Shown one piece after another: positions 1 through 44,534 of a DNA stretch of 45,729 nt. Below the pieces are notes generated by a model. The model made no database searches and was not told the origin of the DNA. It saw only the letters and a program-made list of their open reading frames with translations. A program made the position numbers and the translations under genes. Location: NCBI GenBank assembly GCA_016933615.1, contig JAFGAO010000128.1, forward strand, positions 1 through 45,729, in the 5' to 3' direction. How positions within the stretch are numbered: the first letter of the stretch is position 1; each line of letters starts with the position of its first letter. This stretch comes from Acidobacteriota bacterium. GTDB lineage: Bacteria; Acidobacteriota; UBA6911.

Positions 1-75
<75 letters not shown>

Positions 76-38214: not shown

Positions 38215-39216
38215 TCAGATGCTGCGGATATTCTCGATCAACTCTTCGGCGGAAACGGACGCGGTTCCCAGCTTGCCGACGACAATGCCCGCGGCTATGT
38301 TGGAGAGAACGGCGGCCTCCAGGATGGAGAGCCCGGAGACAAGGCTCAGCGCTAGAGTGGAAATGACCGTATCCCCCGCCCCGGTCACATCGAACACCTC
38401 GCGCGCGACCGTGGGTATGTAAGCCGGCCGGGATCCGTTGCCGAAAAGAGCCATCCCTTCCTCCCCGCGGGTGACCAGCAGGTGCCCGATTCCGGGCCGC
38501 CGCAGCACCGTATTCACGGCGCGCGCCAGGTTGCGCGTCCCGCAAATGGGGATGCCCGACGCCTGTTCGATTTCGGAAACATTGGGCGTCACGACGGTCG
38601 CGGGACTGTAAGCGGCGAAATCAATCATCTTGGGATCGACGCAGACCACCTTGCCGGCCGCCCTGGCCCGGGGCAGCACCTGCCGCAGCAGGGAGCGGGA
38701 AATCAAGCCCTTGGCGTAATCGGAGATGACGACGGCGTCGGCCCTGCCGATCGCCTTCCGGAATTTGGCGGCGATTTTCCTCTGCACGGCGGAGGAAACC
38801 GGGGTCCGGTCTTCGCGGTCCGTTCTGCACACCTGCTGGTGATGGGCTATGATGCGCGTTTTCACGCTCGTCGGCCGTCCCTTATCGATCACCAGGCCGC
38901 CTCCGGCGGAACCGATTGTATGCAGCATTTCCCGCAGCCTCAGCCCTTCGGGATCGTTCCCTGCAACGCCGACGGGAAGGGGCATCCCGCCCAGGCTCCG
39001 GATATTGGCGGCGACATTGGCGGCGCCGCCCAGGCGGGTGCTTTCTTTATTGATTTCGACCACCGGAACCGGGGCTTCGGGGCAGATCCGGGATACCGAG
39101 CCCCAGACAAACCGGTCGACGATCAGATCCCCCAGCACCAGGACCCTTTTCCCCTCAAAACGCCGGACGGCCTGAATCAGCGCCTCCGGATCGCATGGTA
39201 TTTTATTGGAACCCAT
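38215..39216 (-). CDS. rfaE1: D-glycero-beta-D-manno-heptose-7-phosphate kinase (RfaE1/HldA-type)
   Basis: A 333-aa PfkB/ribokinase-fold kinase of LPS heptose synthesis, phosphorylating heptose-7-phosphate at C1. It has the RfaE1 signatures GDLIVDRFVWGSVSRICPEAP and RLGGAANVAANI, the substrate-site HHQQVCRTDRED, and the catalytic D282 in DVTGAGDT. The adenylyltransferase domain of the bifunctional HldE is absent, so the partner RfaE2/HldC must be elsewhere. AAGGTG overlaps the stop of the upstream zinc-finger gene, indicating an operon of pyrE, zinc protein and rfaE1. The stop is followed by an intergenic region. Confidence 0.93.
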   Translation of the reverse strand: MGSNKIPCDPEALIQAVRRFEGKRVLVLGDLIVDRFVWGSVSRICPEAPVPVVEINKESTRLGGAANVAANIRSLGGMPLPVGVAGNDPEGLRLREMLHTIGSAGGGLVIDKGRPTSVKTRIIAHHQQVCRTDREDRTPVSSAVQRKIAAKFRKAIGRADAVVISDYAKGLISRSLLRQVLPRARAAGKVVCVDPKMIDFAAYSPATVVTPNVSEIEQASGIPICGTRNLARAVNTVLRRPGIGHLLVTRGEEGMALFGNGSRPAYIPTVAREVFDVTGAGDTVISTLALSLVSGLSILEAAVLSNIAAGIVVGKLGTASVSAEELIENIRSI

Positions 39217-39225
39217 AGGAACACC

Positions 39226-39870
39226 TTAAGGCATGATTATGGAAGAACCGGCATCCCTTTTGGGAGTCATCCGGGCCAGGAAGTCCACATAACTGCCCGA
39301 AGAAGCGGAATCCTTGGAGCAGGCCGCGATCATGAACCCGAGAAATTCCAGGCACTCGATGGCATTGCGCAGCGGCAGCCGGGTGCTCCCGGGATCCACG
39401 ATCCCCCTTTCCCCTTTGTCTTCCGGATTCCGGTAGGCTTCCAGGATCTCGCGCAGCTCCATCCGGACCGGTTCGGCGCGGAGATCGTCGCAGTTCCTCT
39501 CGTAGAGAATTCCCTTATCCTCGGTCCTGTAATTCGCCAGCAGAATCCCGACCGCCTTGGAAACGTCCGCGTCCTTGAGATTCCGGGACTGCAGGCGCTG
39601 CTGGGCGATCGCATATTCCAGGTGCGCCACCACATCTTTGTTTTCGGCCAGGATCCTCCTGCTTTTTTCCTGCTGCTTGGGGTCCAGGCTTCGAAGCCGC
39701 CTGCCGAATTCCGCGGATTCGTGCTCCCTCCCCGACTGGAGATACTGGCAGGTTTCCGGGCAGTCCAGTTCCAGAACCCGTTTTTGTCCGCAGCAAAGGG
39801 GGCAGATGGAGCTGTTTGCGGCCGGGCAGGGCCTCTTGGCTTTTCTTTCATTGCATACGGCACACTTCAT
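39226..39870 (-). CDS. Conserved zinc-finger protein of unknown function
   Basis: A 214-aa protein with an N-terminal cysteine cluster: CAVCNERKAKRPC, CPLCCGQKR and CPETC (up to eight cysteines, probably two metal sites). The remainder is mostly helical and polar with no recognised catalytic motif. I recall similar N-terminal patterns in hypothetical proteins of related lineages but cannot name a family. It lies between pyrE (57 nt) and rfaE1 (9 nt) on the same strand. No function is proposed. Confidence 0.8.
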   Translation of the reverse strand: MKCAVCNERKAKRPCPAANSSICPLCCGQKRVLELDCPETCQYLQSGREHESAEFGRRLRSLDPKQQEKSRRILAENKDVVAHLEYAIAQQRLQSRNLKDADVSKAVGILLANYRTEDKGILYERNCDDLRAEPVRMELREILEAYRNPEDKGERGIVDPGSTRLPLRNAIECLEFLGFMIAACSKDSASSGSYVDFLARMTPKRDAGSSIIMP

Positions 39871-41486: not shown

Positions 41487-42524
41487 TCATTTCTTCTCAA
41501 GGGCGGCCTGCAGGCGGGAGACTTCTTTTTTCAGCGCATCGATTTCTTTTTTCATCTCGGGAAGTTTTCCGAAATGCGCATTCAGCCTCTTGTACTCCCG
41601 CAACGGACGCACCGGCACCCCCCAGTAAACGTCGCCGCCGCGCACGATTTTCCCCGGCAGGACCCCGGCTTTGGATCCGATCACGGCCCCCTTGCAGACG
41701 CGCGCGTGATCCCCGAATCCCACCTGGCCCCCGATCACCGCGTCATCCTCGATAACCGTGCTTCCGGAAATCCCGGTTTGGGCGGCAATGACCACGTTGC
41801 GGCCGATGTCGACATTGTGCCCTATCTGGACCAGGTTGTCGATCTTGGCCCCCTGCCGAATCCGCGTCACGCCCAGAGATCCCCGGTCGATCGTCGTGTT
41901 GCAGCCCACCTCGACATCGTCCTCCAGGATCACGGCCCCGACCTGGGGGAATTTCACCCGGCTACTGCCGTCGGACACATATCCGAACCCGTCACCGCCG
42001 ACGACCACGCCGGCATGCAGTATGACCCTTTCGCCCAACCGCGCCCCCGGATAGAGAACCACTCCGGGATGAAGAATGCATTCGTTTCCCACAGAACATT
42101 CATTCTCTATTACGGATCCTGCGTACAGGATGCTGCCTTTGCCGATTCTGGCGCCGGCTCCCACGATCGTAAAGGGCCCCAGGTCCACGTCCTCTTCGAT
42201 CATGGCGCTACCCGAAACCACTGCGGTAGGGTGCCGTCTTCCCCGTCCGCGCGGCCGCGGGTGCAGATAGGAAAAAGCCCTGGCGAAATCGAGCTTCGGG
42301 TGCGGGGAAAAAACCACGTTCCTGTCTCCGGCCGCTGTCTCCGGGGGCGCCAGGATACAGCCGGCGCGCAGGGATAGCAGGTCGGCGGAATTTCCTCCCT
42401 CGAAAAAAACCAGGGAGGCCGCGTCCGCCGCGTCCCAGCCCGAAACGCGGTTCAGCACATGGCTGCCCTCCCCCCGGTACTGCAGTCCGAGCAGGGCCGC
42501 GATCTGTTTTACCTGGTAGCTCAT
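41487..42524 (-). CDS. lpxD: UDP-3-O-acylglucosamine N-acyltransferase (LpxD)
   Basis: Adds the second acyl chain in lipid A synthesis, using acyl-ACP, in the cytoplasm. The 345-aa protein has an N-terminal uridine-binding domain (about 1-95), a left-handed beta helix of hexapeptide repeats (about 100-300) with the catalytic H236 in LVQIGHNVDIG, GGDGFGY in the middle, and a C-terminal helix (EMKKEIDALKKEVSRL). Start ATG 42524 matches the family N-terminus; the track start at 42593 adds 23 unsupported residues. The gene shows that the organism makes lipid A and so has an outer membrane. It lies about 100 nt after a Tes-like radical SAM gene. Confidence 0.94.
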   Translation of the reverse strand: MSYQVKQIAALLGLQYRGEGSHVLNRVSGWDAADAASLVFFEGGNSADLLSLRAGCILAPPETAAGDRNVVFSPHPKLDFARAFSYLHPRPRGRGRRHPTAVVSGSAMIEEDVDLGPFTIVGAGARIGKGSILYAGSVIENECSVGNECILHPGVVLYPGARLGERVILHAGVVVGGDGFGYVSDGSSRVKFPQVGAVILEDDVEVGCNTTIDRGSLGVTRIRQGAKIDNLVQIGHNVDIGRNVVIAAQTGISGSTVIEDDAVIGGQVGFGDHARVCKGAVIGSKAGVLPGKIVRGGDVYWGVPVRPLREYKRLNAHFGKLPEMKKEIDALKKEVSRLQAALEKK

Positions 42525-42620
42525 TCCCGTCACCCGAAATAGGGTTTCCGTTTTCCGGATCTGTGGAGAAACAGCCGGGTGTCTTCCGCGCAATTGCCGT
42601 CTTTCGGCGGCGGCAAAGTT

Positions 42621-44534
42621 CTATTCAGTACTGTTGCGCCGCGGGGATTCTCCGGAACCGGAATTTGTTGAATCCGTTGCGGGCAGGACAAGATCGTGCG
42701 CCGTCGTCGCCAGCTCCACCTCTTTGCCGCCGGCATACACTTTGTGCTTTCCTTTCGAGCGGTACCATTCCGCCAGGTCGGCCGTCCTGTGCCGGCTTTC
42801 GACAATCTGGCGCCAGCCCAGTCCGGTATTGTAGGCGCAGAAGGATATCTCCCCCTCTTCGGTTCCGTTCGGGATCACGCACATTTCCGTGCGCCGGAAA
42901 TCGTAGGTCCACAGGTCCTGAAACCACATCCCCTCGACGCAAAGGACTCTCCACTGTTCGCCGTCGGACCGGGTCCGCATGCGGTCGTTCCTGTCGCTGT
43001 CCGCTTTCTCGGAACTGGGACGGAACAGGCGTACGATCTGCGAAATGGGGAATCCATCCGGAGCCTGCGCCGCCCGGTAATTGCGCAGGATGGCCATCGC
43101 AAGCTGCAGTCCGGTCAGCTTCCGCCCGCGGGCCGTGTCGGTGATCACCGCGACATCCCGCATGAAGCGCTCATAGTCGAAAAACCTGAAAAGCGGGATC
43201 CATTCCCCCGTCCGCCGGTTGACAACCAGAAGGGTGAACACGCCGCAATCGGGATGGCAGTTGCACGCGCTCCAGCCCCATGCGGCATCGGGCCCCTGGA
43301 GGATGTCCATGACGCCGGTGAACGCGCTGTAGGTGGAAAGCGGGAACCAGTCGCGCATGGGCTCCAGCTTTCCCCGCAGTTGCACGCGCAGATCTTCCAC
43401 CAGATGCGCCAGGGTGTATCTCTTCGAAAAACGGGACGCATCGTCGATCTTTTCGTCCCGCCCGGTGAAAGAAACCGGCTGGAACACGACCGTCTGCACC
43501 TTGTCCACGTTGCGCACGGCGAATTCGACGATCGGCCCGACGGCGTCCTGATTGACCGTGTTGATCACGGTGGTGACCACGGTCGTTTTCATCCCGGCTC
43601 TGGCTATGTTTTCGATGGCCTGAAGCTTGACGTCGAAGAGGTTGTTCACGCCGCGATGCCGGTTCCTCTCGTTGCCGATGCCGTCGAACTGCATGTAGAC
43701 GCCGTGCAGGCCCGCTTCCTTGGCCCGGCGCGTGAATTCCTCGCTCTGCGCGAACCGGATGCCGTTTGTCGCCGCGAGAATGCGGTAGAATCCTATTTTC
43801 TTCGCGTAGGCGACGGCTTCCAGAAAATGAGGGGAAAGCGTGGGCTCCCCCCCGGAGAAAAGTATGATGATCTGGCGGCGCGGCTTGAAAGAGACGGCCC
43901 GGTCCAGAATCGCCTGAACCTCCCCGAGACCGGGCTCGTGGACGTAACCGACCTGGTTGGCATCGGTGAAGCAGGGATTGCACATCATGTTGCAGCGGTT
44001 GGTCAGATCCACCGTCAGCACCGTGCCGCGCCCGTATCGGATCGAGGATGCGCCGTGGCGGTGCAGGGTTTCATCGTCAACCGACTGGAAATCCCGGCCG
44101 AAGAAGAGGCTTTCGATCCGGCGCGTAAAATCGGCGTTGGTCGACAGGACGTCTTCGAAGGAGCCGTGGATTTCGCAGGTTTTCCGCATCAGGATGCGGC
44201 CGTTTTCCTCGACGAGCCGGGCCTTGATTTCCCCCGGATGCCCTTTGAGCAGAACGTCTATATCCGCCTCCCCGCGGGCGATCCTGTCCCGGATTTCCGG
44301 AACACAGCGGGGGCAGAGGGAATCGGTTTCCCTCGGGAATCCGAGCGGGGGCATGGAACGTTCGCGGCTTTTGGCCATCCTGCCGGGAGCCCAACCGGGA
44401 GAAGGGAGATCCCCTTCCGGAAGTCTTGTGTTGACCGCCTGAAACACGCTCCAGGCAAGATTCGCGGCCGCGGAAATCATGGAGGAACCGAGGCGGTGGA
44501 AACCATTGCCGGAGTGATTGTGATTCTCGCTCAT
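42621..44534 (-). CDS. Radical SAM protein resembling tetraether lipid synthase (Tes/MJ0619 type)
   Basis: A 637-aa radical SAM protein. The cluster motif is C181-x3-C185-x2-C188 in DLTNRCNMMCNPCF, followed by FSGGEPTLSP and VYMQFDGIG. The N-terminal zinc-ribbon-like C74-x2-C77 and C120 with H123 (KTCEIHG), and the C-terminal EGMWFQDLWTYDFRR...MCVIPNGTEEGEISFCAYN region, are features I associate with the Tes family that joins lipid tails in archaea (family knowledge). Bacterial members are proposed to make membrane-spanning lipids; the substrate here is not proven. It is upstream of lpxD on the same strand. ATG 44534 has an unusually close Shine-Dalgarno (AAGGA directly before it), so a later start is possible. 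Confidence 0.82.
   Translation of the reverse strand: MSENHNHSGNGFHRLGSSMISAAANLAWSVFQAVNTRLPEGDLPSPGWAPGRMAKSRERSMPPLGFPRETDSLCPRCVPEIRDRIARGEADIDVLLKGHPGEIKARLVEENGRILMRKTCEIHGSFEDVLSTNADFTRRIESLFFGRDFQSVDDETLHRHGASSIRYGRGTVLTVDLTNRCNMMCNPCFTDANQVGYVHEPGLGEVQAILDRAVSFKPRRQIIILFSGGEPTLSPHFLEAVAYAKKIGFYRILAATNGIRFAQSEEFTRRAKEAGLHGVYMQFDGIGNERNRHRGVNNLFDVKLQAIENIARAGMKTTVVTTVINTVNQDAVGPIVEFAVRNVDKVQTVVFQPVSFTGRDEKIDDASRFSKRYTLAHLVEDLRVQLRGKLEPMRDWFPLSTYSAFTGVMDILQGPDAAWGWSACNCHPDCGVFTLLVVNRRTGEWIPLFRFFDYERFMRDVAVITDTARGRKLTGLQLAMAILRNYRAAQAPDGFPISQIVRLFRPSSEKADSDRNDRMRTRSDGEQWRVLCVEGMWFQDLWTYDFRRTEMCVIPNGTEEGEISFCAYNTGLGWRQIVESRHRTADLAEWYRSKGKHKVYAGGKEVELATTAHDLVLPATDSTNSGSGESPRRNSTE

Follow-up and report, generated by a model that had tools for sequence, protein, structure and literature searches.

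A radical SAM gene beside lpxD in an acidobacterium belongs to a bacterial sister clade of tetraether lipid synthase

A radical SAM gene next to lpxD in an acidobacterial assembly (3.62 Mb, 82% complete) belongs to a family, here divided into groups A and B, that is a bacterial sister clade of the archaeal tetraether lipid synthase Tes. Among present candidates for the enzyme making the membrane-spanning lipids of Acidobacteria, the A/B family is the strongest, and the lipid A neighborhood of the gene recurs across lineages and is specific to paralogue A. The window, as the term is used below, is the whole stretch of DNA analyzed, contig C83 of that assembly, 45,729 nucleotides long. An earlier note on this DNA had described the gene as Tes-like and had taken it to mean that the bacterium may make membrane-spanning or otherwise coupled lipids.

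Results

The window gene encodes a Tes-like radical SAM protein

The reading frame of the window gene begins with ATG, and because its orthologues in related genomes are 68 to 87% identical, it is a real gene rather than a chance frame; the closest named record (87%) is from Acidobacteria bacterium Zod_Metabat.95. The features of the gene are listed below, with Tes residues given after PMC9433317 (the chain numbering is offset by 20, as verified on C33/H36).

42621-44534, minus strand: Tes-like radical SAM protein of group A, 637 amino acids (open reading frame, domains, structure match, and tree)
44427-44504, minus strand: N-terminal amphipathic helix, residues 11-36 (about), missing in M. 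jannaschii Tes (AF2 secondary structure and hydrophobic moment)
44166-44315, minus strand: rubredoxin-type metal site C74-X2-C77...C120-X2-H123, whose loop is longer than that of Tes (all groups conserve the ligands)
44025-44063, minus strand: HRHGASSIRYGRG (residues 158-170) in place of the ligands of the N-terminal auxiliary cluster, [Fe4S4]N, with HxHG for the second Cys of Tes (alignment)
43971-43994, minus strand: radical SAM cluster motif C181-X3-C185-X2-C188 (translation and alignment)
43242-43265, minus strand: C424-x-C426-H-P-x-C430, in which C430 corresponds to Tes C338 near the C-terminal cluster (invariant in group A)
42834-42929, minus strand: C-terminal auxiliary cluster segment with M536 (Met439 of Tes), C552 (C455), N556 (Tyr459), and C566 (C470) (alignment)

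Pfam recognized two domains in the protein, Radical_SAM (E value, 1e-21) and the zinc ribbon Zn_ribbon_HMPTM (E value, 9.5e-12), and no cobalamin-binding domain. In line with the earlier note, the CX3CX2C radical SAM site is present at C181/C185/C188, within TNRCNMMCNPC, and the N-terminal cysteines that it had pointed out form the rubredoxin-type CX2C...CX2H site. The proposed resemblance of the C-terminal region to Tes was also borne out, as this region could be aligned with Tes up to its end. The best solved structure by sequence was the Tes of M. jannaschii (MJ0619; PDB 7TOL; E value, 6.8e-59; residues 103 to 597). Furthermore, an AF2 model of the protein (pLDDT, 73; pTM, 0.82) retrieved 7TOM/7TOL in Foldseek with a TM score of 0.80 (TMt) over 563 columns (E value, 1.5e-29), and the matches that followed reached E values of only about 1e-7. 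Amphipathic helices lie at places matching those of Tes; helix amphipathicity, examined as a proxy for the hydrophobic lipid tunnel, did not separate the groups. The window protein has about 60 N-terminal residues more than Tes, including the helix listed above, which may dock the enzyme to the membrane.

The window protein is nevertheless not Tes in the curated, narrow sense, since it scores below the equivalog cut-off, is missing the [Fe4S4]N ligands, and falls in a separate clade. It reached 287.9 bits against the NCBIfam Tes equivalog NF045702 (cut-off, 450), and the second-best model, that of the TrsS radical SAM (seleno)protein (NF045646), gave 206 bits (cut-off, 490), so that neither cut-off was reached. 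The description as Tes-like stands for the fold and the catalytic site, and it does not extend to identity with Tes proper, to which the protein is about 28% identical. A second gene in the host genome, C65:16135-17613 (L002/L043), scored 570 bits against the Tes model, above the NCBIfam cut-off, and matched 7TOL with an E value of 2.5e-128. On these scores, the host has one true Tes-type gene, of group C and on contig C65, and a separate window gene; of the two, the group C gene is the stronger candidate for a tetraether synthase. The genome also has a third gene of the Tes/TrsS-like radical SAM type (G000:C220:1869-2810), which is shorter and scored about 285 bits against the first 314 positions of the Tes model, and genes similar to it are dispersed through the phylum.

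Internal stops in some group A orthologues were considered as selenocysteine codons. This reading was rejected because the open frames already cover the matched region, the stop being the natural gene end. A scan for sigma-70 promoters gave one site, near the shuffle mean of 0.7.

Groups A and B are separate from true Tes-type proteins

Phylogenies were built as a quick tree of 123 rows and an LG+C20 tree of 51 rows. The window gene lies inside the A/B clade (support, 100/100), on a long stem and apart from M. jannaschii Tes and group C. The phylogeny with archaeal Tes and bacterial homologues that the earlier note had proposed thus places the gene in a sister clade of Tes and not with M. jannaschii Tes or group C themselves; the position of the root is weak because the outgroup is one long-branched sequence, and the split between A/B and C is independent of it. 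Placement among pterin-methylating MJ0619-type enzymes had been named as the alternative. A separate clade of that kind was rejected, and the alternative collapses, because MJ0619 is the tetraether synthase itself and its pterin-methylase annotation was not corroborated (PMC9433317).

Within A/B, group A (support, 100/100) consists of the window gene and its family, Pyrinomonadaceae sequences, and, at its base, L095, from a contig labeled Planctomycetota. Group B proteins are 48 to 58% identical to the window protein and were found in Acidobacteriota, Gemmatimonadota, Latescibacterota, Calditrichota, Myxococcota, KSB1, and others. No group B gene was detected in the host genome as assembled (82% complete); as the host has a true Tes-type gene and no detectable B, tail coupling there need not depend mainly on group A.

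The A/B clade retains the Tes coupling residues and has lost one cluster

The rubredoxin ligands of Tes (C9, C12, C33, and H36; C74, C77, C120, and H123 in the window protein) are kept in essentially all rows of the alignment. The radical SAM cysteines and the SAM contacts F106, R210, Q268, and R275 are conserved in all rows, and the SAM contact S271 is conserved in A/B. The C-terminal residues C338, C455, and C470 and the labile Met439 (window C430, C552, C566, and M536) are conserved except in truncated rows, the cysteines being assigned to the C-terminal cluster from the alignment on the strength of their conservation. Tyr459 of Tes is replaced by Asn556 in the window gene, and likewise by Asn in L007; nearly all other A/B proteins have Tyr. 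Although conserved in archaeal enzymes, this residue is dispensable in vitro, as the Y459F and Y459L variants of Tes are still active (PMC9433317).

The [Fe4S4]N ligands C73, C77, C80, and H83 were lost in 98 of 98 A/B rows of the alignment and retained in all 24 group C and intermediate rows. The window gene has T/H/S/R at these positions, and A/B rows carry a segment of the form HxHG(S/A/T)S..(K/R).GRG in their place. Additional features of A/B are C424 ahead of C426-H-P-x-C430, the N-terminal helix, and the longer rubredoxin loop. This pattern of ligand conservation indicates that A/B has kept the coupling parts of Tes and lost a surface cluster.

The small-family rows L055, L057, and L061, in which every Tes ligand is present, branch off between C and A/B. 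These and L059 and L062, all acidobacterial Tes-type proteins lying between C and A/B, combine the four Tes metal sites with an A/B-like C424 and are possible intermediates in the loss of the [Fe4S4]N cluster.

Group A genes are linked to lipid A genes

Two genes of lipopolysaccharide synthesis lie downstream of the window gene on the same strand.

41487-42593, minus strand: lpxD, lipid A N-acyltransferase, directly downstream of the window gene (NCBIfam; position conserved in the family)
38215-39216, minus strand: hldE kinase domain (rfaE domain I), LPS heptose synthesis (NCBIfam; conserved downstream in relatives)

The adjacency to lpxD reported in the earlier note was confirmed by the NCBIfam lpxD model (304.8 bits; cut-off, 242.5). 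The bounds given for lpxD count from the first TTG; the start at the conserved MSYQ is situated about 70 bp inside that frame. Cotranscription of lpxD with the window gene is probable. The hldE gene lies about 3.4 kb further downstream. Near pyrE and hldE, at 39226-39870 (minus strand), is a gene for a 214-amino-acid protein with paired-cysteine motifs (CAVC and CPLCC), which had no match in Pfam or NCBIfam; relatives (L066, L067, and L068) also conserve it close to the locus. Positions 1 to 74 (minus strand), where the contig begins, fall inside the 5' end of a gene for 16S rRNA, so the assembly probably broke within an rRNA operon.

In the family of the window gene, lpxD is next on the same strand; often, lpxB is also found 2.7 to 3.2 kb upstream and hldE on the downstream side. 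The Pyrinomonas locus runs lptD, lpxB, lpxD, lpxA, group A gene, with 178 bp between the group A gene and the divergently oriented lpxA. In other Terriglobia, lpxD (NCBIfam lpxD, 346 bits) lies 4 to 7 kb upstream. Upstream of the basal gene L095, and on its strand, are lpxB (about 0.3 kb away), lpxA, and lpxD, which suggests that the linkage is ancestral to group A.

The lipid A neighborhood noted earlier for this one locus recurs across group A. The flanks contained lpxA, lpxB, or lpxD in 22 of 33 group A regions and in 0 of 24 group B regions (Fisher test, P = 6e-8), and among 24 genomes with both paralogues, an lpx gene stood beside A only in 13, beside B only in none, and beside neither in 11 (sign test, P = 2e-4); because the sequences are related, these counts are not independent events, and taken conservatively they amount to about three or four arrangements. 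For scale, a 20-kb stretch makes up about 0.5% of a genome of this kind. In about a third of group A regions, no lpx gene lies within 9 to 10 kb, and the linkage was lost in one Pyrinomonadaceae subclade. Other than lpx genes, the neighbor clusters found as possible operon partners were lineage specific. As a weaker inference, the linkage suggests that group A either has lipid A or outer membrane lipids as its substrates or works in coordination with them.

The distribution of A/B genes fits that of iso-diabolic acid at class level

Acidobacterial subdivisions correspond to the classes used here, a mapping that the papers cited below partly support. A/B genes were present in 77 of 81 genomes of Terriglobia (the class of a Ca. 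Acidiferrales genome), 54 of 58 of Blastocatellia (that of Pyrinomonas), 29 of 60 of Vicinamibacteria (that of Luteitalea), and 16 of 61 of Thermoanaerobaculia. Group C was found in about 8 of the 81 Terriglobia and about 5 of the 58 Blastocatellia genomes, and in a larger Terriglobia sample, 370 of 399 had a Tes-family match, only 36 of them above the Tes cut-off. A survey of 46 strains from seven subdivisions, cited in PMC13274423, reports iso-diabolic acid in subdivisions 1, 3, 4, and 6. Group B is near universal in the acidobacterial classes known for this lipid, a fit at class level with few named strains, and at that level the A/B family fits the distribution of iso-diabolic acid better than true Tes-type genes do.

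Previous studies have shown that more than 40% of the membrane lipids of Pyrinomonas methylaliphatogenes K22, an obligate aerobe, are iso-branched ethers and membrane-spanning iso-diabolic acids (PMC4644332). This genome has one A gene, one B gene, and no group C (Tes-type) gene. Iso-diabolic acid is also a primary fatty acid of the genus Chloracidobacterium (PMC12816986); in Chloracidobacterium genomes, recognized by the FMO protein, B is the only Tes-family protein. The coupling enzyme for iso-diabolic acid has been called unknown (PMC10087280).

Discussion

From homology, fold, ligand conservation, clade, lpx linkage, and distribution, we infer a reaction, a substrate, and an outer membrane role. 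On balance, we lean towards A/B enzymes coupling acyl tails into membrane-spanning lipids of the iso-diabolic type, with group A doing so in an outer membrane or lipid A setting. Tes joins the terminal carbons of saturated phytanyl tails using two SAM, while the first tail is bound to a sulfur in the C-terminal cluster (PMC9433317), and iso-C15 acyl tails terminate in the same isopropyl group as phytanyl (PMC8941075). Since the catalytic ligands are conserved, Tes-type coupling chemistry is plausible for A/B. By analogy with Tes, SAM would be cleaved at the CX3CX2C cluster, and the 5'-deoxyadenosyl radical would abstract a hydrogen at the terminal carbon of a first lipid tail; this tail would be held on the C-terminal [Fe4S4] cluster and attacked by a second tail radical, giving an sp3-sp3 C-C bond. 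The putative substrates are iso-C15 acyl tails. Two of these joined at their ends make 13,16-dimethyl octacosanedioic acid, which is the chemical name of the predicted product, iso-diabolic acid, the membrane-spanning lipid of Acidobacteria. In this scheme, B would serve as the general enzyme, and group A, including the window gene, would probably act at sites of lipid A or outer membrane lipid synthesis. The host itself may make membrane-spanning lipids. On the other side, the absence of [Fe4S4]N could mean a different electron supply or a different chemistry, and the Mss family also makes such lipids, according to PMC13274423.

A more specific role for group A in lipid A would have it couple two lipid A acyl chains, or one tail of lipid A with one of a phospholipid, yielding a lipid that spans the outer membrane. 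We regard this as unlikely, though a possibility to be taken seriously: lpxA, lpxB, or lpxD (and lptD in Pyrinomonas) lies beside A in three arrangements, that of the basal L095 among them, and no lpx gene lies beside B in the regions read. However, the shared gene order may have been inherited, lpx genes are absent from the vicinity of group A in some regions, and lipid A acyl chains carry 3-OH groups and are of unequal length, and their fit is not demonstrable from the model. To our knowledge, no lipid A-coupled or outer membrane-spanning lipid is known in Acidobacteria, which also counts against this role. The fuller scheme, in which group A links an acyl tail of lipid A with one of a phospholipid, creating a covalently spanned outer membrane, and B is the iso-diabolic acid synthase, we would put forward only as a long shot.

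It is distinctly unlikely, in our estimate, that A/B enzymes perform other radical chemistry on lipid tails, such as C-methylation (the extra C5/C6 methyl of iso-diabolic lipids), desaturation, or chain cross-linking. A radical SAM core is compatible with many reactions, the [Fe4S4]N ligands are gone, and MJ0619 was originally filed as a class D methylase (PMC9433317). However, that assignment was not corroborated in the same work, the Pfam domains of the window protein leave it without a cobalamin-binding domain, and the cluster that holds the substrate radical for C-C coupling in Tes retains all its ligands.

It seems highly improbable that the window gene is a divergent but functional Tes converting diethers to tetraethers (branched glycerol dialkyl glycerol tetraethers [brGDGTs]), as proposed for bacterial Tes homologues (PMC8941075, PMC10087280). 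The fold and catalytic ligands agree with such a role; the subthreshold score, separate clade, and lost cluster argue against it, as does the 570-bit Tes-type gene of the host, a stronger tetraether candidate. A non-lipid enzyme, such as a metalloprotein maturase or a peptide-modifying radical SAM enzyme of the TrsS/SPASM kind, is hardly credible: TrsS is the second-best NCBIfam model, but the Tes match is longer and stronger in both sequence and fold, and the neighborhood is one of lipid A.

A bacterial Tes-like gene is not new as such, because homologues have been published since 2022 and proposed for brGDGT synthesis (PMC8941075, PMC10087280, PMC11868695). The window protein shares with Tes, also called GDGT-MAS, the full-length fold, the rubredoxin and radical SAM sites, the SAM contacts, and the C-terminal cluster ligands with the labile Met, and is set apart from it by the HxHG and CxCHPxC motifs. 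The pools of Zeng 2022 (PMC8941075) and Halamka 2022 (PMC10087280) probably mix group C with A/B, for example in "one or both" homologues of Solibacter usitatus; these studies did not separate A and B from true Tes or describe the lost cluster or the lpx link. In the open-access literature, we found neither a split of Tes-type from A/B proteins nor any mention of the lost cluster, of a link to lpx genes, or of producers with B alone as an argument; the clade split, the lost [Fe4S4]N cluster, and the lpx link look new. Two other enzymes are comparable by description. Mss (Sahonero-Canavesi 2022, as presented in PMC13274423) is proposed to couple fatty acyl chains tail to tail and has a Tes-like modeled architecture, but it was studied mainly in anaerobes (Bacillota and Thermotogota), unlike the obligate aerobe Pyrinomonas. 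The GMGT synthase Gms (PMC11186832) is a radical SAM enzyme making sp3-sp3 joints between membrane lipid chains, as proposed here for A/B, but it cross-links GDGT chains, in archaea.

Two bacterial families previously lumped as Tes homologues are now separated, a rare true Tes-type and the widespread A/B. Acidobacterial iso-diabolic acid and brGDGTs are the basis of widely used paleoclimate proxies, and Pyrinomonas and Chloracidobacterium are cultured organisms whose only Tes-family genes are A/B. The lpx-linked paralogue A raises a separate question about the outer membrane.
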